Position numbers and translations under genes: made by a program
Shown here: positions 6,322 through 29,647 of the stretch, piece after piece
How positions within the stretch are numbered: the first letter of the stretch is position 1
Layout of the letters: each line of letters starts with the position of its first letter
Origin: a virus
IMG/VR virus record: IMGVR_UViG_3300036859_000303
Span: 1-29,647 of that record
Direction: 5' to 3' (one strand)
DNA: 29,647 nucleotides
Notes under the pieces: generated by a model
What the model saw: the letters and a program-made list of their open reading frames with translations, nothing else
Database searches by the model: none
What the model was told of the DNA's origin: nothing

Positions 6322-6483
6322 ATGAAGTGCAGCACCAAAAGCAGCTCCGCCCGAGGCTGGAACCCCGGGCGGAGCCTCAACCCCACGCGACGTGAATCGC
6401 GCAAGGCTCCCGTGAAGGGCCTTCACCGTATCACGTCATCCGTGGGCCGCGAAGGAGCCTGCGATGAACGTGCTACCGCTTGA
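6322..6483 (+). CDS. Possible 53-residue leader peptide ahead of the transposase
   Basis: ATG 6322 lies exactly where the plus-strand promoter of the palindrome would start transcription, and the frame stays open for 53 codons (MKCSTKSSSARGWNPG...), ending inside the transposase gene. The peptide is basic, Ser/Arg-rich and not recognised. It spans a strong hairpin (6344-6375). It could be a leader peptide or chance. The only support is its position. Confidence 0.22.
   Translation: MKCSTKSSSARGWNPGRSLNPTRRESRKAPVKGLHRITSSVGREGACDERATA
6344..6375 (+). repeat. Strong GC hairpin upstream of the transposase
   Basis: GCTCCGCCCG (6344-6353) pairs perfectly with CGGGCGGAGC (6366-6375) across a 12-base loop. 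No T-run follows, so it is not a classical terminator. It lies between the plus-strand promoter (6287-6315) and the transposase start at 6464, where it could limit transposase expression from outside transcription, as structured leaders do in some insertion sequences. Confidence 0.5.
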
Positions 6484-7417
6484 GAGACAGGTGCGAGCGA
6501 TCTCCGCTCTCGTGGAAGGGTGCTCGATTCGCTCTGCCGAGCGGATTACCGAGATCCACCGCGATACAATCATGCGACTCGGCGTGACGGTTGGCAAAGG
6601 GTGCGCACGGCTTCACGATCACATGATGCGCGGCCTCAACGTTGCCGCCGTCGAGCTGGACGAGCAGTGGGCATTCGTCGGGAAGAAGCAGAAGCGCGTC
6701 TGTCACGATGACCCGGCCGAGATGGGCGACGCCTACCTGTTCGTTGCGCTCGCTGCCAACACGAAGGCCGTAATCTCCTACCTGGTCGGCAAGCGGACCT
6801 CGGAGAATACCCTTGCCCTAGCGACCGATCTTCGGGGCCGTATCGTGAACCGCCCGCAAATCACGAGCGACGGATTCCAGCCGTACCCCGATGCGATCGA
6901 TTACGCCTTCGGCCTGGACGCGGATTTCGCCCAGCTCGTGAAGGTATACCAGGCAACCCCTGGCAACAGCGCGGAGATCCGGTACTCCCCCGGGTCCATC
7001 AGGGATTTAGAAATCAGGAACGTTCGCGGTAACCCCGATCCCGAGCGGATCAGCACCAGCTACGTCGAGCGATTCAACCTGACTACGCGGATGGCCTCGC
7101 GCCGCTTCACGCGCCTCACCAACGGGTTCAGCAAGAAGCTAGAGAACCACAAGGCGGCGATCGCTCTCCACGTCGCGCACTACAACCTCTGCCGTGTCCA
7201 CGAAACGATCCGCGTAACGCCCGCGATGGCGCTCGGCGTGACGGATCACGTGTGGACCGTGGCCGAGCTGGTGAGCGCCGCCCTTGAAGCGCCAGCGCCT
7301 ACGCCTGTCGCGCCCGCTCCGTACCGGGGCATGAGCGGCGCTCGCGCCAAGGGTGAGACTCGCGGCCACGCGCCGTTCAAGGGCGGATTGCGACTCATTC
7401 CGGGCGGAAAGCGATAA
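6464..7417 (+). CDS. IS1-family-like DDE transposase
   Basis: The product has 317 residues. The N-terminus (about 10-50) holds a helix-turn-helix-like segment (GCSIRSAERITEIHRDTIMRL). The catalytic triad reads Asp66 in VELDEQWAFVGKK, Asp136 in ITSDGFQPY and Glu202 in SYVERFN. The C-terminus has TRLTNGFSKKLENH and HYNLCRVHETIRVTPAMAL, which I recall from proteins annotated as IS1 family transposases. All three acidic residues are present, so it may be active. AAGGAG lies 8-9 bases before the ATG. It runs opposite to its minus-strand neighbours. I could not identify terminal inverted repeats or a target duplication, so the limits of the element, if it is one, are unknown. Confidence 0.8.
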   Translation: MNVLPLERQVRAISALVEGCSIRSAERITEIHRDTIMRLGVTVGKGCARLHDHMMRGLNVAAVELDEQWAFVGKKQKRVCHDDPAEMGDAYLFVALAANTKAVISYLVGKRTSENTLALATDLRGRIVNRPQITSDGFQPYPDAIDYAFGLDADFAQLVKVYQATPGNSAEIRYSPGSIRDLEIRNVRGNPDPERISTSYVERFNLTTRMASRRFTRLTNGFSKKLENHKAAIALHVAHYNLCRVHETIRVTPAMALGVTDHVWTVAELVSAALEAPAPTPVAPAPYRGMSGARAKGETRGHAPFKGGLRLIPGGKR

Positions 7418-14862: not shown

Positions 14863-15249
14863 ATGGGGCTCTTCCACGGAATTAAGCCTCGCGACAAATG
14901 GGTTCTTGAGTATTTGCTCGCGCGCTCTCTCGGTCGTGACGTCCACGGCAACTTTTGCGGCGTACACATCGAGACAACTCCCACGTTCGATGACGGAATG
15001 GAGTTCGTCGTTGCATTCAACGAGGCATTTCCCGGTCGTGTGAGTGATCCAAATCTCACACTCGGATCGGCGCGTCTCGCGCGGGTATGCCGGAGAATGG
15101 TGCGCGACGGTTGGCTTGAGCGCTGGCGTCTCGGTAATGAGGTCGATTTGCCTGGCACGCCGCGCTGGCAATGGGTGTATCGGATTCCGCAGGCAGTTCT
15201 CAACGATCTAAAGAACCAGAGGATCACGCTCGTCGAGGAAGCACGTTGA
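14863..15249 (+). CDS. Unknown protein, possible winged-helix, in transposase operon
   Basis: The product has 128 residues. LGSARLARVCRRMVRDGWLERWR (about 67-89) followed by the strand WQWVYRIP has the recognition-helix and wing pattern of a winged-helix DNA-binding domain. The N-terminus (KPRDKWVLEYLLARSLGRD) could be the first helix. The gene starts at ATG 14863, one base after the previous stop, and its TGA overlaps the ATG of the transposase (TGATG), so the two proteins are made together. It may be the DNA-recognition or regulatory partner of that transposase. I do not recognise the family. Confidence 0.55.
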   Translation: MGLFHGIKPRDKWVLEYLLARSLGRDVHGNFCGVHIETTPTFDDGMEFVVAFNEAFPGRVSDPNLTLGSARLARVCRRMVRDGWLERWRLGNEVDLPGTPRWQWVYRIPQAVLNDLKNQRITLVEEAR

Positions 15250-16082
15250 TGGACAAAGTCACCATCAGCACGTTTCAGCTTTTCCAGATGTTCCCCGATG
15301 CCGAGAGTGCTCGGCTCTACTTCGAAGCTCGCCGCTGGCCGAACGGAGTGCGCTGCCCGGTCTGTGAGAGCGGCGAGCGGATCACGACTCGCGCGGGCGG
15401 CTTTTACCGCTGCAATAGCTGCAACGAAGACTTCACAGTCCGCACGGGCACCATCTTCGAGCGATCGCACGTTCCGCTGCACAAATGGCTCTATGCGATG
15501 TACCTCCTCGTGACTGCTCGGAAGGGTATCTCGTCGCTTCAGCTCTCCAAGCAGATCGGCGTCACGCAGAAGACTGCGTGGTTCATGCTCCATCGGCTCC
15601 GCGAAGCGTGCGGTGGAGATAGCGGTCTTGGCAAGCTGCGCGGCATCGTCGAAGTGGACGAGACTCACGTCGGCGGGATCGAGGGCAACAAGCACGAGCG
15701 GAAGAAGCTCCACGCTGGCCGTGGCACCGTCGGCAAGGCCCCCATCATCGGCCTTGGCTCCACGATCCACACCGACGAAGCAGCGGCATACGCCAATCTT
15801 GGCGGTCTCTTCTTCGGCCATCATGCCGTCAATCACGGGGCTGGCGAGTACGCTCGGGGCAACGTGAGCGTGAACGGCATCGAAAGCGTTTGGGCTGTTC
15901 TCAAGCGCGGCATCATCGGTGTCTACCACCACGTTTCCCGTAAGCACCTCGGTCGCTACGCACACGAGTTCGCTTTCCGCCTGAACGAGGGGAACGTCCG
16001 CCGCCACACCTTCGACCGGCTCGACAGCCTGATCGCTGCGACGGTGGGACGTCGGCTCACCTATGCGAGGTTGACCGCATGA
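15249..16082 (+). CDS. IS1595/ISXO2-type transposase, internally shortened
   Basis: The product has 277 residues. The N-terminal zinc ribbon has Cys36/Cys39 (CPVC) and Cys55/Cys58 (CNSC). It is followed by a helix-turn-helix-like segment (SSLQLSKQIGVTQKTAWFM, about 95-113). In the DDE domain Asp137 lies in IVEVDETHVGG, Asp176 in IHTDEAAAY and Glu212 in NGIESVWAVLKRG, and YHHVSRKHLGRYAHEFAFR is the typical end. In the family I know, about 40-60 residues separate the GTVGKAPI segment from the TDE motif. Here VGKAPIIGLG runs almost straight into HTDEA, so the central strands are missing while the frame and all three acids are kept. It overlaps both neighbours (TGATG, ATGA). No terminal repeats were identified. 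It may be inactive or domesticated. Confidence 0.8.
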   Translation: MDKVTISTFQLFQMFPDAESARLYFEARRWPNGVRCPVCESGERITTRAGGFYRCNSCNEDFTVRTGTIFERSHVPLHKWLYAMYLLVTARKGISSLQLSKQIGVTQKTAWFMLHRLREACGGDSGLGKLRGIVEVDETHVGGIEGNKHERKKLHAGRGTVGKAPIIGLGSTIHTDEAAAYANLGGLFFGHHAVNHGAGEYARGNVSVNGIESVWAVLKRGIIGVYHHVSRKHLGRYAHEFAFRLNEGNVRRHTFDRLDSLIAATVGRRLTYARLTA

Positions 16083-21721: not shown

Positions 21722-22009
21722 ATGGAAACTCTCGGAAAGCCGGTGCTCGTGACCACAGAATATCGCGGGGTGTTCTTCGGATACCTGGATGGAAAACCCG
21801 GTGACACGCTGACGATCACCAAGGCCCGCAACTGCATCTACTGGTCGGCCGACGTGAAGGGCGTTCTTGGGCTGGCTTCGAACGGGCCGACGAGAACCTG
21901 CAAGGTGGGGCCGGCGGTGCCGTCGCTCACGCTCTTCAAGGTGACGGCCGTAGTCGAGGCCAAGCCCGAGGCAGTCGAACGCTGGGAGAAGGCCCCGTGG
22001 GCGCTGTAG
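21722..22009 (+). CDS. DUF6948-like small protein
   Basis: The product has 95 residues from ATG 21722 with AAAGGAG about 10 bases upstream. An in-frame ATG at 21689 lacks a ribosome site. The sequence (PVLVTTEYRGVFFGYL, TKARNCIYWSADVKGVLGLA, GPTRTCKVGPAVPSL, ending VERWEKAPW) matches a compact beta-rich family I recall as DUF6948 from phages and phage-like islands. The function is unknown. It overlaps by 13 bases the next gene, which carries Gly-X repeats, an arrangement I recall seeing with this family elsewhere (unverified). Confidence 0.65.
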   Translation: METLGKPVLVTTEYRGVFFGYLDGKPGDTLTITKARNCIYWSADVKGVLGLASNGPTRTCKVGPAVPSLTLFKVTAVVEAKPEAVERWEKAPWAL

Positions 22010-22530
22010 TCCTCTGGGGTAGGGTGTTTGGGACCGAGTACGGGACCGGGTACGGGTACGGGGCCGGGGCCGGGGCCGGAGACGGGTACGGGTACGGGGG
22101 CGGGTACGGGGCCGGGTACGGGGACGGGGCCGGGTACGGGACCGGGTACGGGGACGGGAAATATTTCGCCTCGGCGATAGCCTTAGTTTCGGCGTCGTGG
22201 CCGGCCCCGCAACAGACACGTCTTCGCGAACTCCAAGCTGCAGGCGCGCGGATTGCTTATTGGCGCTCCACCGCGAAAGGGACCGCTGCAAATGGAGGCT
22301 CGTGCGAGCCGGTGGCAATCGGCACCGTACAGACTGAGAAGGGACCGTTGCGGCTTTGTTCACGCGGGACACTCCACGCGACGCTGCTGCCGCACAAGTG
22401 GCGGGGTGAGAAGCTGTGGGTCGTGGCCCTCATCGGCAAGATCGTCGGCAACGATGAAAAGCTCGGGGCGCTCAAGCGCGAGATTGTCGGTGAGGTGGTG
22501 AGTCCGGGCATCGGTGGAGAGGTACCATGA
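21997..22530 (+). CDS. Gly-X repeat protein with DUF7666-like C-terminal domain
   Basis: The product has 177 residues from GTG 21997, inside the previous gene. Residues about 12-54 are a Gly-X repeat where every second residue is Gly and X is mostly Tyr, Ala, Asp or Thr. The C-terminal half (about 85-170: RIAYWRSTAKGTAAN, LRLCSRGTLHATLLPHKW, GEKLWVVALIGKI, KLGALKREIVGEV) resembles a small domain known to me from phage proteins as DUF7666, with a conserved LHAT. The function of both parts is unknown. The repeat may act as a flexible or surface-binding tail. The repeat lies in a GGGNNC DNA array and could vary in length between strains. Confidence 0.6.
   Translation: MGAVVLWGRVFGTEYGTGYGYGAGAGAGDGYGYGGGYGAGYGDGAGYGTGYGDGKYFASAIALVSASWPAPQQTRLRELQAAGARIAYWRSTAKGTAANGGSCEPVAIGTVQTEKGPLRLCSRGTLHATLLPHKWRGEKLWVVALIGKIVGNDEKLGALKREIVGEVVSPGIGGEVP
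22030..22158. repeat. GGGNNC hexanucleotide array
   Basis: About 21 consecutive 6-bp units, nearly all of the form GGGNNC (GGGTAC, GGGGCC, GGGACC, GGGGAC), with a few GAG or GGA variants at the start. Coding in the plus frame gives Gly followed by Tyr, Ala, Thr or Asp. The NN positions vary while the frame is kept, so the array is under amino-acid-level constraint or expands by slippage with subsequent mutation. Confidence 0.8.
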
Positions 22531-23534
22531 CCGACATCCTGGTCGTCGACAACTCGGCGCTCCGCGACCTTGCTAGCTGTAGCCGCCGTGCGCTGCTGCG
22601 GTACTGGTTCGGATTCGTGAGTCCCGAGGAGAGCCGGTTTTTGCGGGCTGGCTCGGCGGTGCACGCGGCGGTGGCAGACTGGCTGCTGTCAGGTGGTGAT
22701 CTCCGCCGGGCAATGGCAGAGCTGACGCTCGGGTACGAGGAGTTTGGCTCCGACCCGGCTTGCGTGCAGCCCGATGATCGGCTCTCGTGGGCGAACGTCC
22801 GCCGGGTGGTGCAGGCTTGGTTCGAGGGGCACCGGCCAGCCGAGCTGCCATGGGAGACCGAAGCCGTCGAGGAGCCTTTCGTGTTGCCGCTCGTGCCGGA
22901 CGGCAGTGTAACTGTAGTCGGACGGATCGACGGCCGGGGTCGTGACCGCCAGCTTCGCCAGCGATGGCTCGTCGAGCACAAATCGACGGGCAGGATCGAC
23001 AAGATTTGGATGTCCAACTTTCACTTGGACAGCCAGGTGTCTGAGTACCTGTGGGCACAGGAGCAGCAGAGTGGGGAGCTGTACTCCGGGGCGTTCATCA
23101 ACGGGATCGAGCTGAGCCAAGCGCCGAGCGATGCCAAGCGAAAGTGTGCCAAGCACGGCACTGTATATGCAGAGTGCGGGGCGCTGCATCCGAATCACCA
23201 GATCGTACCGGTGACGCGGACACCCGAGGAGCTTGCAGCTTGGCACGTCCAGGCGGTCCGGATGGCCGAACGATACTGGGACCTGGTCGAGAGCTTCAGC
23301 CAGCTCGAGCAGATAGCAAGCAGTCCGGCCGAGGGCAAGTTCCACGGAGCCTGCGCGTTCTGCTTTGCGCGGAGCTTCTGTGTGACGGGGGCCAACGCGG
23401 ACGCTGCCGAGAACATGTTTCGCGTCGAGCCGTGGCAGCCGTTCGCCGACTCGGGCGGGCGCTGGGCTGGCTTGACGGTCGGACGGTGGCAGCAGCTGCC
23501 AGTCGAACTGGAGCCCAGGCGGGCCGACGCATGA
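22527..23534 (+). CDS. PD-(D/E)XK nuclease with four-cysteine Fe-S-type cluster (Cas4/AddB-like)
   Basis: The product has 335 residues from ATG 22527, with GGAGAGG close upstream. The nuclease core is His46 (SAVHAAV), Asp135 (VGRIDGRG), Glu150-x-Lys152 (LVEHKST) and Gln170/Tyr174 (DSQVSEY), the RecB-family motif order. One Cys near the N-terminus (Cys18, SCSRR) and three near the C-terminus (Cys276, Cys279, Cys285 in CAFCFARSFC) match the 1+3 arrangement that holds an iron-sulfur cluster in Cas4 and AddB-type nucleases. It would be a single-strand exonuclease for recombination or DNA processing. There is no cas1 or CRISPR nearby. It is followed by the Sak4-like ATPase, so a phage recombination module is likely. 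Confidence 0.82.
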   Translation: MTDILVVDNSALRDLASCSRRALLRYWFGFVSPEESRFLRAGSAVHAAVADWLLSGGDLRRAMAELTLGYEEFGSDPACVQPDDRLSWANVRRVVQAWFEGHRPAELPWETEAVEEPFVLPLVPDGSVTVVGRIDGRGRDRQLRQRWLVEHKSTGRIDKIWMSNFHLDSQVSEYLWAQEQQSGELYSGAFINGIELSQAPSDAKRKCAKHGTVYAECGALHPNHQIVPVTRTPEELAAWHVQAVRMAERYWDLVESFSQLEQIASSPAEGKFHGACAFCFARSFCVTGANADAAENMFRVEPWQPFADSGGRWAGLTVGRWQQLPVELEPRRADA

Positions 23535-23773
23535 GGCGCGGACAGCATGACTTGGCCAATGTTAGTTGGAACGTGGCTGACCTCACTAATCCGAAGCAGG
23601 CTCGAAGCCCCGAGCACGCGATTCTTGCTGTGCTGATGGATATTCGCAAGCAGTTGTACGGTATCGGAGATCGGCTCGATTGCGGCGAGTGCCTCGCGAT
23701 TCCGCGAACGCTGCGCCAAATCGCTGCCAACACCAAACGGAGGAAGCCTAATGCCAAAGCCAAGCCGAAGTGA
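23531..23773 (+). CDS. Unknown 80-residue basic protein
   Basis: ATG 23531 overlaps the nuclease stop (ATGA). The N-terminal half is polar (LANVSWNVADLTN), the middle helical (SPEHAILAVLMDIRKQLYGI) and the end very basic (TKRRKPNAKAKPK). One Cys pair (DCGEC) lies in the middle. Its last 23 bases overlap the start of the Sak4-like gene. It may be a small partner of the recombination proteins, which is a guess from position. Confidence 0.5.
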   Translation: MRRGQHDLANVSWNVADLTNPKQARSPEHAILAVLMDIRKQLYGIGDRLDCGECLAIPRTLRQIAANTKRRKPNAKAKPK

Positions 23774-24584
23774 CCAGCCAACCACAGCCGAGCCTGCGCC
23801 GAACCCGAGTCTGCTCTGCCGTATCGAGCACTATTCCGACGAGGAGCCCACCGAAGCAAGCGGCTACAGCCGATACTTCAACCGCGTCAAGCATCTGCGC
23901 AACGATGGCGAAATCCAACAGTGGGCAACGGTGGTGTTCGACAGCGTGACGAGCATGGATATCCTGGCGCGGGGTTGGTATCGGTACCAGCTGAACCCGG
24001 CCAAGGGCGGCGATGCCGGCCTACACGATACCAGGCCCTGGAGAGCCGGCGCGACAGACACTCTCGAGGAGAATCTGTACACACGAGTCGGGGCTTGGCG
24101 CACGAATGTCTGTGTGATCGCGCATATCACCGAGGACAAGGACGAGGTCAACGGCAGCTTCGTCCGGAATCCTGCGGCGCCGGGGCGACTGTCGAAGCGC
24201 CTGCCGGCTGGCTACAACGAGATGTATCACATGTATGGCATCGATGACGAGGGCAAGGACACGCGATGTCTGCAGACCAGCCGAAATAGCCGGTTCAATG
24301 CCGGCTCGACCATTGGGGCGCCGAACCCATGCTGGCCGGAGTTCGATTCGCTGTGGCAGGGCTGGCCGAACGGCAGCCAGCGGCCGTGGCTGCATTGTAT
24401 GGTATACGGGGACGTGTTCATCGGCAAGTCGAGCTTCGCGGCGACATGGCCGAAGCCGATGCTGGTGCTGATGTTCGACGGGATCGGGAAGGACACTCCA
24501 TATCTGCGGCTCGGCGAGGTGGTCGATGAGGGTGTAGACGAGTTCGGGACGTTCGTGCAGCAGGTGTACGAACGGGCATCCTGA
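23751..24584 (+). CDS. Sak4-like RecA-fold ATPase, apparently circularly permuted
   Basis: The product has 277 residues, a normal size for the family, from ATG 23751 with GGAGG about 7 bases upstream. Sak4-type phage ATPases help single-strand annealing recombination and normally read Walker A, a strand ending MFDxxGKD, then Walker B and a conserved C-terminal part. Here the order is swapped. Residues about 23-202 hold the later part: the Walker B-like WATVVFDSVTSMD (Asp64), CVIAHITEDKDEV (His125), FVRNPAAPGRLSKRL and NPCWPEFDSLW. Residues about 212-277 hold the beginning: HCMVYGDVFIGKSSFAATW (Walker A, Gly220-Ser227), then MLVLMFDGIGKDTPYL and VDEFGTFVQQVYE. The two halves join through GWPNGSQRP. 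It lies between the nuclease and the polymerase genes. Confidence 0.75.
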   Translation: MPKPSRSDQPTTAEPAPNPSLLCRIEHYSDEEPTEASGYSRYFNRVKHLRNDGEIQQWATVVFDSVTSMDILARGWYRYQLNPAKGGDAGLHDTRPWRAGATDTLEENLYTRVGAWRTNVCVIAHITEDKDEVNGSFVRNPAAPGRLSKRLPAGYNEMYHMYGIDDEGKDTRCLQTSRNSRFNAGSTIGAPNPCWPEFDSLWQGWPNGSQRPWLHCMVYGDVFIGKSSFAATWPKPMLVLMFDGIGKDTPYLRLGEVVDEGVDEFGTFVQQVYERAS

Positions 24585-25196: not shown

Positions 25197-25880
25197 ATGG
25201 GCAAGAACATTCCAGCAGGCAGCATTCCGCGTCGGAGCGTACTGCCGCCTGGCAACCATACGCTCGAAATCGAGAAGCTCGAGGAGACCGATCTCGACGG
25301 TAGCTATGCGCTACGAGGGGCGTACCGGTCGCTCGGCCCGGTCGCCGGGCTGACACACAGCGAGCTGTTCGTGATCGGCACCGAGGCCGATCCGACGGCC
25401 GAGGATCCCGACAGCTGGACCGGGCCAGATGCCTGGTCAGCACAGCGTCTGTTCCGGATGCTCGACAAGGCGAAGGTGCCGGGAGCCGAGGCCGAGAGTG
25501 TGGACTCGGAACAGCTCTGCATCGATGCCGAGGGGCACCGGTTCGACGTGGTGTGCACGCACGTCATCGACGACGGCAAGCGGAACCCGGCAAACAAGGG
25601 CAAGACGTACGTCAGGCTGGCGTACTTCGAAGAGGGCAGCTTGCAGGCCGGGGCGGCACCGGCCCGCGGGTCGGCTCCGAGACCTACCCCGGCGGCTCCA
25701 GCAAGACCGACGCCACCTGCGCGGCCGCCCGCTCCAGTCAGGCAGGCAACCCCGGCGGCTCCACAGCCAAACGGCGAGGATACCGAATACGAGGCTCCGG
25801 CGGCTGCTGCGGCCGCTCCGGCTCCGCCCCCAGCGAGGGGTACCGCACCGCAGCGGCCGATTCCGAGGCGCACCGCCTGA
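25197..25880 (+). CDS. Possible DUF669-like ssDNA-associated protein with Pro/Ala-rich tail
   Basis: The product has 227 residues from ATG 25197 with AGGGAGG about 5 bases upstream. Residues 1-135 look like a compact beta-rich domain (NHTLEIEKLEETDL, AYRSLGPVAGL, HRFDVVCTHVID, KTYVRLAYFE). Residues 145-225 are a long Pro/Ala/Arg tail. In other phages, DUF669-type or single-strand-binding proteins stand between the recombination ATPase and the polymerase and have this two-part build, with a disordered tail for partner contact. The domain match is weak and mostly positional. The tail is GC-rich and repetitive. Confidence 0.45.
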   Translation: MGKNIPAGSIPRRSVLPPGNHTLEIEKLEETDLDGSYALRGAYRSLGPVAGLTHSELFVIGTEADPTAEDPDSWTGPDAWSAQRLFRMLDKAKVPGAEAESVDSEQLCIDAEGHRFDVVCTHVIDDGKRNPANKGKTYVRLAYFEEGSLQAGAAPARGSAPRPTPAAPARPTPPARPPAPVRQATPAAPQPNGEDTEYEAPAAAAAAPAPPPARGTAPQRPIPRRTA

Positions 25881-25957
25881 CGACAGGCGTAGGCACGATC
25901 TCCGTGGGGTAGGTGAGCCGGTCGGCCGCTACCCCACTTCTCGTTGGAGGACGCGGA

Positions 25958-28561
25958 ATGCTTTCTGTAGCGGTACCGGACTACGGCTCACGCGCTGCTC
26001 GGCTGGTGCTGATCGGCGAGGCTCCTGGCAGCCAGGAGATGCTCCGCCGGACGCCGTTCGTCGGCCCGAGTGGCAAGCTGCTCGAGCGCTGGTGGGCAGC
26101 ATCCGGGCTCAGCCGACGCGATTTCTACATCACGAACACGGTGGGGTACCAGCCACGGGGCAAGGTGGAAGCGCTGTCGCGTGCTGAGCTGGACGACTGG
26201 ATAGCTGCACTGCACGATCGGCTAGCCAAGCTGGACGATCCTTGGCTGATCGTACCGACCGGGGCAGTGGCGCTCGAGGCGTTGACCGGCAAGCACGGCA
26301 TCCTGAAGCACCGGGGTAGCGTGTATAGCTATACCGACAATCGGGGGCGGGTGGTGAAGGTGATTCCGACGGTGCATCCGGCGGCGACGTTCCGGGAGCC
26401 ATCGCTGGAGAAGGCGTGCCGGGCCGACTGGGCGCGGATCGCGGCGGACAGCCAGTTCCGAGAATTGCGGCTGCCCGAGCGCGCCCACTACATCAATCCG
26501 AGCCTCGACGACGTGCGGTGGTTCGTGGACGAAGTGGCTGCGCACGGCCGGGTGCTCTCCGTCGACATCGAGACGCCACGACGAGAGACCTGGACCCCGA
26601 CGGTGCTGAAGTCCGGCAAGCCGGGAAAGCCGAAGCGATCACTCGGCGAGCCTTACATTGCGTGTGTGGGATTCAGCTTCGACCCGGCCTTCGCGATGTG
26701 CATACCGACGACTGCTGAGTATTGGGGCTCGGAGGGCCGGTGTCGGCGGGTGTGGGGGCTGGTGCAGCAGCTCTGCCAAGACCCTGTGACCGAGAAGGTG
26801 CTGCAGAATGGCGGCTTCGACACCTGGTGGCTGGAGCGCGAGCAGAGCATTCGGATGGTGAACTACCGCTGGGACTGCAAAGCGATGCATCACTGTTTGG
26901 ACCCCACTGACAGCCATAGCTTGGCGTACATGGCGAGCGTCGATACACGCCAGCAATTTTGGAAGGACGAAGCGAAAGACCCAGACGAGATAATGAAGTA
27001 CGCCAGCAACCAGGAGGCTTTTTTTACGTACAATTGTCTCGACGTCGAGGTCCAGCGGGAGCTGTACGATGTCTACGAGCGGGAATTGCAGCGCCGTGGG
27101 CTGCTCGGCACGTACATCCAGCACTACCGGAACCTGTTCTGGCCGCTGTTGCAGATCAGTCTGCACGGGCTAGCAGTGGATTCCGAGATGCGAGCCGTCA
27201 AGGAAGCAGAGTTCAAAGCCGAGATATCTCGGCTGCGAAGTGAGCTGTCGGAGCGTACCGGTACCGAACTGTATGGTAAGACCAGTCTGTCGCCAACCAA
27301 GCTAGCGGCTTACCTGTACGGTACTCCAATCAAGCAGAAGTGTCCGACTTGTGGAGGCCGGAAAGCCAAAGCTGGCTGTCAGTCCTGCAGGCAAACCGGC
27401 AAGGCGCTTGTTAGCCTGCCGCAGTCACTGCGACTGCCGAAGCAGATGCTGAAAGGAAAGCTGACCACGCGCGAGGTAGCGGTGCGGAAGCTGATGCTGA
27501 AGTTTCCGGACAAGCTGGGTGTGACTGGGCAGCTGATACTGGATCAGCGTCGGACTCAGCAGCTGGTGAACTTCGTGAAGGAATCTCGTGTGGACCCGGA
27601 CGGCCGGATGCGGTCCAGTTACGGCTTCAGCCCGGAGACCGGACGGCTCAGCAGCACGAGAGCGCCGAACCGCCGCGGCTGCAATGCCCAGAACCAGGAC
27701 CGAGAAATACTCGAGATGTACAAGGCCGACGAGGGTTGTGTGCTGCTGGAGGCAGACTATAGCCAAGGTGAGAGCCGAATCGTCGACGTGCTGACGCAGG
27801 ACCGGGTGTTGGTGGACCGGGCGTACAGCAAGCCGTGGGAGCGGGACGTGCACCGGGAGACCGCGGCCATCGTGTTTCGGGTACCGCTTCGAGCGGTTAC
27901 CGACCTGCAGCGCGAGCTGGGAAAGCGAGCCAAACACGCCGGCAACTACGACGTCCACGGCAAGACGTTCTCGGAGGAGCTATCGAAGGACGGCTACACG
28001 TTCACGCCCGAGGAGTGCGAGGCGTGGATTCAGCAGGCGGTCGAGCCAGCGATCCGCCACTGGCAGCGCCGGATTCGAATGGAGCTGATGCGGCACCGGA
28101 AGCTGGTGTCGCCGTTCGGGTGTACGATCAGCTTTCCGTACGAGCGGCTGGACAGCAATCTGTACCGTAGGGGCTATGCCTGGAAGCCCCAGCACACACT
28201 AGCTAAGATGCTGAACCTGTTTGGGATGGTGCCGCTGGCGAGGTGGCTGGCTCGAGAGGCCGTTCCCGCCCGGGTGAACGCCAACATCCACGATGCGTTG
28301 AAGGTGAGCGTGCCACCTGAGTGGGCCTACGATGTAGCTGAGTTCATGGGCACGAGCATGTCGCAGCCGCTCGACATCGAAGGGATTCCGCTTGCGATCC
28401 CTGTGGAGTACAAGGTAGGACTGCGAGGTGGCGGGCCGGGCACGGTGAAGCTGAAGCGCCTGCCGAGCCGAGAGGAGTTCGACCGAGTGGTGGCGAGCGT
28501 GATGGACGACAGCACGGCTGTACCAGCCGCCGTACCCGACGTTGCAGCAGCCGAAGTCTAG
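25958..28561 (+). CDS. Uracil-DNA-glycosylase-like domain fused to family A DNA polymerase
   Basis: The product has 867 residues from ATG 25958 (GGAGG upstream). GTG 25913 would add 15. The N-terminal UDG-fold domain (about 10-165) has GEAPGSQE (20-27), PFVGPSGKLL (33-42) and HPAATF (140-145), the motifs of family 4/5-type glycosylases. The 3'-5' exonuclease (about 195-390) has VDIE (Asp203, Glu205), NGGFD (Asn284, Asp288) and YNCLD (Tyr358, Asp362). The polymerase has FSPETGRLSS, motif A EADYSQGESR (Asp600, Glu605), motif B GKRAKHAGNY (Lys656, Tyr664) and motif C IHDAL (Asp779). Between thumb and fingers lies a zinc-ribbon insert with Cys462, Cys465, Cys474 and Cys477. Motif C has Ala where HDE is usual. 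All catalytic acids are kept. Confidence 0.85.
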   Translation: MLSVAVPDYGSRAARLVLIGEAPGSQEMLRRTPFVGPSGKLLERWWAASGLSRRDFYITNTVGYQPRGKVEALSRAELDDWIAALHDRLAKLDDPWLIVPTGAVALEALTGKHGILKHRGSVYSYTDNRGRVVKVIPTVHPAATFREPSLEKACRADWARIAADSQFRELRLPERAHYINPSLDDVRWFVDEVAAHGRVLSVDIETPRRETWTPTVLKSGKPGKPKRSLGEPYIACVGFSFDPAFAMCIPTTAEYWGSEGRCRRVWGLVQQLCQDPVTEKVLQNGGFDTWWLEREQSIRMVNYRWDCKAMHHCLDPTDSHSLAYMASVDTRQQFWKDEAKDPDEIMKYASNQEAFFTYNCLDVEVQRELYDVYERELQRRGLLGTYIQHYRNLFWPLLQISLHGLAVDSEMRAVKEAEFKAEISRLRSELSERTGTELYGKTSLSPTKLAAYLYGTPIKQKCPTCGGRKAKAGCQSCRQTGKALVSLPQSLRLPKQMLKGKLTTREVAVRKLMLKFPDKLGVTGQLILDQRRTQQLVNFVKESRVDPDGRMRSSYGFSPETGRLSSTRAPNRRGCNAQNQDREILEMYKADEGCVLLEADYSQGESRIVDVLTQDRVLVDRAYSKPWERDVHRETAAIVFRVPLRAVTDLQRELGKRAKHAGNYDVHGKTFSEELSKDGYTFTPEECEAWIQQAVEPAIRHWQRRIRMELMRHRKLVSPFGCTISFPYERLDSNLYRRGYAWKPQHTLAKMLNLFGMVPLARWLAREAVPARVNANIHDALKVSVPPEWAYDVAEFMGTSMSQPLDIEGIPLAIPVEYKVGLRGGGPGTVKLKRLPSREEFDRVVASVMDDSTAVPAAVPDVAAAEV

Positions 28562-28581
28562 CCGCCCGAAGGCCCGCAGCT

Positions 28582-29647
28582 GTGCAACCGCCCGCCGCCC
28601 CAGCTCCAGCTACCTTTCTCAGCCTCTACAAAGCTCACTGCGGCCGTACCGAGGTGCCCGAGCCGTACCACCTCTGGGTCAGCCTCGCGCTGATCGCCAG
28701 CTGCGTGTCCGATCGGGTGTGGATCGAGAAGCTCCGGGGTAGCCGCTGGGTACCGAACCTCTACGTGCTGCTGCTCGGCCCGAGCGGGCTTGGCAAGGGC
28801 GAAGCAATCAATACGGCGTGTCGGCTCGTGAAGCCGTACACGGAGAAGCAGCTCGGTGCCGACGGTCAGCCCTTGCCGATGCTGAACGTCTACTACGGCA
28901 AGGCGACGGGCCAGTATGTGGCTGACTTCATGTCGGGTCGGGAGCGGGATGCGCCGCGGCGGGTCACCCGCCGGATGGTACGAAAGGTAGAACCGAAGCA
29001 GCGGCTCATGCTGGTCAACGAGGAACTGGCGCTCGACATCGGTCGCGGCCCGCAGGCAGACGACTTCATCAAGTACATGACCGGGCTGTACAGCGGAAGC
29101 CCGTTACCGTTCCGGGATGGCACTCGCACGGCTGGCGAAGCCGCGGTCCCGAACCCGTGCTTGAACTGGCTAGCCGGCACCACCGAGGAATGGCTGGTAG
29201 CCAGTGTGACTCGCGACGCCATCGAGGGCGGATTTTTTGCTAGGGTGGTCACGGTCGTCGGGGACTACGATCTCGACAACCGGGTGCCAGAGCCTACCTA
29301 TCCGCTCGACTACGATGCGATCGTGGCGGCGCTGCGGCGCTGCGTGGAGATCCTGTTGACTGTCGCGGAGGGGCCGGTCGCGATGACGCCATCGGCACAG
29401 CTGGTAGCCAACCATTGGTACTCGGTCCGGCCGACGCCGGCCGATGAACAGCTGCTGCCGACGTGGAAGCGGCAGCCCGTGCTGGTATACAAGGTGGCGA
29501 TGCTGCTGGCGCTGTCCAGCTGGGTGGTGCGGTATGCGCTCTGGCAAGATGACGGCGCCGAAGGGCTCGCACCGGAGCTTGTCATCGACCGGGCCGAGAT
29601 CATCGCCGCACAGCGGATGCTGGTCAAGGTGCAGGCACCGATCGGCC
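28582..29647 (+). CDS. DUF3987-like phage helicase/primase ATPase (3' end cut by window)
   Basis: The reading frame is open from GTG 28582 to the right edge (355 codons). The N-terminus (TFLSLYKAHCG, PEPYHLWVSLALIAS) is helical. A P-loop follows as LLLGPSGLGKGEAI (about 62-75), and LMLVNEEL (about 137-144) is the Walker B strand. Later helices (LNWLAGTTEEWLV, GGFFARVVTVVGD) match the DUF3987 pattern as I know it from phages, where such proteins act as replicative helicase or primase-helicase next to the polymerase. The P-loop ends in GKG rather than GKS or GKT. The Ser/Thr that coordinates magnesium is replaced by Gly, which is unusual. The start lies 20 bases after the polymerase stop. Confidence 0.7.
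   Translation, partial: MQPPAAPAPATFLSLYKAHCGRTEVPEPYHLWVSLALIASCVSDRVWIEKLRGSRWVPNLYVLLLGPSGLGKGEAINTACRLVKPYTEKQLGADGQPLPMLNVYYGKATGQYVADFMSGRERDAPRRVTRRMVRKVEPKQRLMLVNEELALDIGRGPQADDFIKYMTGLYSGSPLPFRDGTRTAGEAAVPNPCLNWLAGTTEEWLVASVTRDAIEGGFFARVVTVVGDYDLDNRVPEPTYPLDYDAIVAALRRCVEILLTVAEGPVAMTPSAQLVANHWYSVRPTPADEQLLPTWKRQPVLVYKVAMLLALSSWVVRYALWQDDGAEGLAPELVIDRAEIIAAQRMLVKVQAPIG

Follow-up and report, generated by a model that had tools for sequence, protein, structure and literature searches.

A probable circularly permuted Sak4-type RecA-core ATPase in a phage contig, and permuted relatives in other phages

The Sak4-like gene and its neighbors

The window analyzed here is a 29,647-nucleotide stretch of viral DNA (positions 1 to 29,647 of IMG/VR record IMGVR_UViG_3300036859_000303). 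A gene on its plus strand (23751-24584) encodes a 277-residue protein that profile searches identify as a circularly permuted relative of the Sak4-like RecA-core ATPases. The protein can be divided, in the order in which it is encoded on the plus strand, into: a new amino-terminal tail (residues 1-17; 23751-23801) that lies outside the family profile match and is modeled with low confidence; residues 18-207 (23802-24371), which form the second part of a normal Sak4 and contain the RIEHY strand, Walker B, the KDE and PAAPGRL motifs and the carboxy-terminal block; a joint between the old carboxy terminus and the old amino terminus (residues 208-209; 24372-24377), lying between the two profile matches; and residues 210-275 (24378-24575), which form the first part of a normal Sak4 and contain strand 1, Walker A, the second strand with FDG.GKD.PYL and a hairpin. 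The Walker B strand is TVVFD (residues 60-64; 23928-23942, plus strand) and the Walker A P-loop is GDVFIGKS (residues 220-227; 24408-24431, plus strand); the conserved Walker A lysine and Walker B aspartate, both invariant columns of the alignment, are present. Codon-position GC is similar between the two halves of the gene and the adjoining genes.

With its neighbors on the plus strand the gene makes up a recombination/replication module. Upstream lies a PD-(D/E)XK (Cas4/RecB-like) exonuclease gene (22527-23534; PF12705, 3.9e-10; phrog_1218, 1.4e-18), which adjoins Sak4 in relatives too. Downstream are genes for an SSB-like protein (25197-25880), a DNA polymerase A with an amino-terminal UDG domain (25913-28561) and a primase/helicase (DUF3987; 28561-29646; phrog_14296, 8e-22; PF13148, 2e-11) that is truncated at the contig end. 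The SSB-like protein itself has no match among the Pfam and PHROG family profiles; its assignment comes via a homolog (L022, 9435-10193; blastp 2.5e-14) that hits both phrog_378 SSB (3e-7) and DUF669. The polymerase, identified by profile matches and used below for the phage tree, has a 3'-5' exonuclease domain between its uracil-DNA glycosylase and polymerase domains.

Several other features of the window were noted. The reading frame at 21997-22530 (plus strand) contains a long, low-complexity Gly-Tyr/Ala repeat run (GYGAGYGDGAGYGTGYGDG). Two DDE transposase genes, of IS1 type and IS1595 type, are present at 6464-7417 and 15171-16082 (plus strand), and the same contig encodes terminase, portal and major head proteins.

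Motif order and predicted fold

Both Pfam AAA_24 (4.8e-9, above the gathering score) and the Sak4-like phrog_124 (1.9e-13) hit the window protein in two stretches. When the pieces were scanned separately, residues 1-210 corresponded to positions 61-193 of AAA_24 and 103-240 of phrog_124, and the last 67 residues to positions 5-34 and 46-78, respectively. A subfamily profile made from 12 normal-order relatives only gave the same picture: profile positions 70-252 match residues 18-207 (205.8 bits, iE 2.4e-64) and positions 3-69 match residues 210-275 (77.5 bits, iE 3.6e-25), so that the two pieces are complementary, with neither overlap nor gap. The best score among 2000 shuffled window proteins was 4.4 bits. 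When all rotations of the protein were scored, the best began at residue 209 and produced a single match of 280.5 bits over profile positions 3-251, compared with 205.8 bits for the unrotated protein. Known phages behave likewise in tblastn: among the matches listed, coverage in a single place is at most 58% for the unrotated protein and 87-97% for the rotated one, and no known-phage record covers at least 80% of the unrotated protein. Residues 18-207 contain no Walker A, the sole copy in the protein being the one at 220-227; the Sak4 motif order, Walker A followed by Walker B, is reversed in the window protein and restored by rotation. A chimera of two families is ruled out, since both pieces hit the same family. 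By its sequence the window protein thus belongs to the Sak4 family by descent, as a genuine permuted relative and not as a canonical member.

The original prediction had been made from the sequence alone, and the swapped motif order that it described is borne out by the two complementary profile matches and by the rotation maximum at the joint. Its boundaries for the two pieces (residues 23-202 and 212-277) were correct to about 5 residues. It had allowed that the halves might match different families or that residues 23-202 might hold a Walker A of their own, either of which would have defeated the claim; aligned separately, both halves hit one and the same set of families and proteins, and the first has no such motif. 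An intact frame and a good ribosome site had also been described, and the gene is a full open reading frame that begins with ATG and has a Shine-Dalgarno-like GGAGG (23739-23743, plus strand) 7 nt upstream.

An AlphaFold2 model of the window protein, for which the input alignment combined permuted proteins with the separated halves of normal ones, is confident and compact (pLDDT 90.5, pTM 0.87). Its early part comprises a strand at 21-27, a helix at 38-51 and the Walker B strand at 60-64, and its late part a strand at 215-220, the P-loop helix at 226-230, a strand at 237-241 and a hairpin at 256-262/268-273; as modeled, they correspond by rotation to the elements of the normal relative L013, for which the model was weaker (pLDDT 69.5) and built from fewer rows. 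The cut had been expected in a surface loop, which fits its position in the turn between the predicted strands 256-262 and 268-273 that end the permuted chain; the same turn is at residues 70-74 in the L013 model. The first 20 residues of the window protein are modeled with a pLDDT of only 55-73, and the profile match starts only at residue 18.

The L013 model aligns over nearly its whole length with RAD51-type and RecA cores (Z 12-13.6), its top match being the Staphylococcus aureus phage Sak4 (PDB 8rc5; Z 13.6, nearly full length). With a sequential aligner, the window model matches RAD51/RecA cores mainly over residues of about 14-210 (Z up to 7.3), and the alignment begins past the Walker A of the target (RAD51 179-328 in the top row). 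With Foldseek against the PDB, 39 matches fell below 1e-3 for the normal relative and none for the permuted model, as is expected when a sequential aligner is given a permuted chain. In BFVD, phage RecA-like proteins match the permuted model with good superposition over part of the chain only. Sequential methods cannot show that the core is closed; the high pTM suggests that the last 65 residues do close it in the model.

Permuted and normal-order relatives

Fifteen close relatives were identified in IMG/VR contigs with a degenerate DNA pattern and with alignments of the subfamily; 12 are in normal order (L013/L022, L025, L043 and nine others) and three, from other uncultured phages, are permuted. 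The permuted ones are: L034 (also L012/L017; contig 3300035183_001064, 53 kb), which runs through profile positions 56-248 and then 9-68; L029 (contig 3300037245_003366, 50 kb), with 47-252 and then 4-45; and L033 (contig 3300035698_014502, 47 kb), with 47-251 and then 4-46. The chain ends at the same place in the window protein and L034 (69/68), and this cut site is common to both; L029 and L033 use a second site (46/47) directly after the conserved GKDxPY, no more than 25 residues from the first. All four permuted genes have an intact reading frame and a Shine-Dalgarno-like site before the new start, and their products share only about 30-51% identity among themselves. The nearest normal-order relative has 46% identity to the window protein after rotation. 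More distant Sak4 proteins (L002-L009, L030-L042) have the normal order wherever the order can be read.

The joints carry some information on how the proteins may have arisen. All four are almost without linker, which says that the old termini lie close together in space; a RecA core without extra domains allows this. In L029, L033 and L034 a methionine stands directly before the old amino terminus (RMPI, GMPE; codons at L029 8661-8663, L033 8580-8582 and L034 8601-8603), in L033 following AAAGGGGAGAGG; it may be a relic of the old start codon or an internal start that yields a free P-loop peptide. L034 has profile positions 56-68 at both ends, as GVPAVAVHT near the start and GLPTIEVYS at the end. 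Duplication followed by incomplete trimming would leave such an overlap; it is suggestive only, and it is weak statistically (5 of 500 shuffles of the L034 amino terminus score equally). No relics of a tandem copy were found in the flanks of any of the four permuted genes, and an Rfam scan of the permuted loci for introns gave no match.

The order exonuclease, Sak4, SSB-like protein, polymerase A places the gene in the same slot in normal and permuted relatives. Each of seven contigs (those of the window, L029, L033, L034, L043, L022 and L025) has one AAA_24 locus, so the permuted gene would seem to stand in for the normal one where it occurs, with the reservation that these contigs may be incomplete. 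Two peculiarities of the adjoining genes were seen. In L027 (6184-7974), an apparent intein carrying a LAGLIDADG domain interrupts the exonuclease gene next to Sak4. Two separate genes encode polymerase A in the other permuted-Sak4 contigs (L029, 13132-15021 and 15824-16711; L033, 12616-14520 and 14862-15713; L034, 11865-13550 and 13853-14731), the break in L029 and L033 coming after the motif NLQNIKR/NMQNLKR, and the interval between the halves in L033 (14521-14861) holds a reading frame with a weak, below cut-off SLOG-type match (PF10686). A tie between the split polymerase and the permutation was rejected: the window polymerase is whole, and the normal-order L046 has a split one too.

Searches outside this set were negative. 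Scans of viral contigs with single sequences (the window Sak4, exonuclease and polymerase) brought up no relatives, and two scans of genome contigs found no subfamily member, so at this search sensitivity the subfamily looks phage-bound. A plasmid search returned nothing relevant, a PDB sequence search no relative, and the known-phage collection no close permuted relative at the tblastn sensitivity used.

Origin and meaning of the permutation

How often the order changed was addressed with two trees. In the Sak4 tree, for which all sequences were rotated to one common order, the four permuted rows require three order changes, and the normal-order L043 joins L029 and L033 with support of 100/100. 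In the polymerase tree L043 again groups with L029 and L033 (100/100), and the window groups with the normal-order L025 and L013/L022 (91/92, 94/95). A single clade of the permuted members is rejected in both (AU p 0.018 for Sak4; 1.2e-5 for the polymerase). Since the permuted proteins are not monophyletic and L043 sits with L029 and L033, the order probably changed at least twice and possibly three times. The normal order is taken as ancestral since all distant Sak4 proteins with a readable order have it.

One event with reversals is not excluded. A single ancient permutation in the subfamily, with termini shifted later and several returns to normal order, would fit with cut sites no more than 25 residues apart and with three smaller permuted groupings that the Sak4 tree does not reject (window and L034, p 0.22; window, L029 and L033, p 0.068; L034, L029 and L033, p 0.13). 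L034 lies on a long branch, and the polymerase may differ through recombination between phages. We nevertheless hold this history unlikely: besides the rejected clade and the placement of L043, the window's polymerase neighbors are of normal order, and every reversal would amount to a second permutation. The stronger proposal, that within a single small subfamily the RecA core of phage Sak4 has been permuted repeatedly, with two or three separate events and two cut sites, we regard as evenly balanced between true and false. The original prediction could not have shown that two or more cut sites exist and that the permutation probably arose more than once.

As to the nature of the protein, we consider it highly probable that it is a Sak4-type RecA-core ATPase permuted in place, probably through tandem duplication and trimming. 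The order, the joint, the coding integrity, the recurrence in four phages, the synteny and the confident predicted fold are observations; the ATPase and annealing activities of the window protein and the duplication route are inferred, with no biochemical data. Under the proposed route, a tandem duplication of the Sak4 gene would have been followed by read-through fusion of the copies and then by loss of the front of the first and the back of the second. The old termini are joined almost without linker, and the new start lies in the turn that leads into the third core strand (profile 69/70); the new ends are at this hairpin turn in the window protein and L034 and after the GKDxPY segment in L029 and L033. 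The beta1-P-loop-beta2-hairpin unit would be translated last and yet pack into the same RecA fold. Duplication and loss had been put forward in the original prediction, and remain an inference: the end overlap in L034 and the joint methionines favor them, and the flanks, free of relics, do not.

Sak4 is a RecA-core-only protein. That of HK620 binds ssDNA and carries out ATP-dependent annealing of complementary strands, is stimulated in this by an SSB whose gene usually adjoins Sak4, and shows no strand exchange in vitro (PMC5928155). The window protein shares with the Sak4 family (phrog_124; HK620; PDB 8rc5) the family profile in both pieces, Walker A and B, the KDE/PGRL motifs and the nearby exonuclease and SSB-like genes; it differs in that its Walker A unit is carboxy-terminal. 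The normal-order IMG/VR members occupy the same slot, have at most 46% identity after rotation and differ in motif order. The cores of RadB, RAD51 paralogs and RecA align with model residues of about 14-210, but differ in the order of the core elements, and the window protein has no extra amino-terminal domain. With the same motifs and the same setting, the permuted protein most likely acts as Sak4 does: the exonuclease would produce ssDNA, the SSB-like protein would coat it, and the permuted Sak4, binding both ATP and ssDNA, would anneal complementary strands.

The permuted protein might instead have gained another role or oligomer, for instance through changed filament or ring contacts, beyond replacing Sak4. 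RecA and RAD51 proteins polymerize via segments adjoining the core termini; the permutation relocates these termini, and its recurrence could mean selection. We find a new role improbable, as the protein has the module position and the conserved residues of an ordinary Sak4 and no data support it. It is more improbable still that the gene is a rearranged, dead Sak4 remnant with motifs kept by recent descent. Its Walker A, GDVFIGKS, is slightly off the common GDPGAGKS, its RQW motif reads RPW, and it has a long disordered amino-terminal tail; against this, the frame is full-length with a good ribosome site and coding-like codon-position GC in both halves, the key residues are conserved, it is the sole Sak4 match in the contig, and no stops have arisen over a long divergence (46% identity to the closest relative of normal order). 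An assembly artefact, in which misjoining or a chimera of two copies of the gene gave the swapped order, is scarcely credible and largely ruled out even though the window gene is on one linear contig only and no near-identical copy was found. The original prediction had named restriction to a single assembly as a sign of such an artefact, but permuted order also occurs in three further contigs (47-53 kb) of different phages, of which two have another cut, with intact frames, Shine-Dalgarno-like sites and proteins only about 30-51% identical to one another, and the joint itself is clean and keeps the frame.

Natural permutation of P-loop proteins is known in TRAFAC GTPases, namely those of the YjeQ/YlqF type and cpRAS, the latter with the order G3-G4-G5-G1-G2 (PMC2430557). 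In the YjeQ/RsgA-YlqF GTPases the order is G4-G5-G1-G2-G3. As in the window protein, the P-loop of these GTPases is shifted toward the carboxy-terminal part and the fold is retained, and in cpRAS the chain is opened in a comparable region; unlike it, they are TRAFAC proteins rather than RecA-core ATPases, have other cut points and have been known for years. Our literature search, which left most subscription journals uncovered, found no natural circular permutation of Sak4, RecA or RAD51 recombinases, in agreement with the earlier statement that none had been described for this family. Standard sequential searches split or underscore permuted proteins, as the Foldseek result illustrates (0 significant PDB matches versus 39 for the normal relative).

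Related phages with normal Sak4 and with Sak4 permuted at two sites, all in the same slot, constitute a natural experiment on how P-loop ATPases tolerate permutation and how often it is repeated. The set could reveal intermediates, and also on which termini the formation of filaments or rings depends. If repeated permutation is true, these phages would offer a RecA-type recombinase in a natural series of topological forms, and the permutation may have been selected, with the moved termini altering oligomer contacts or partner binding.
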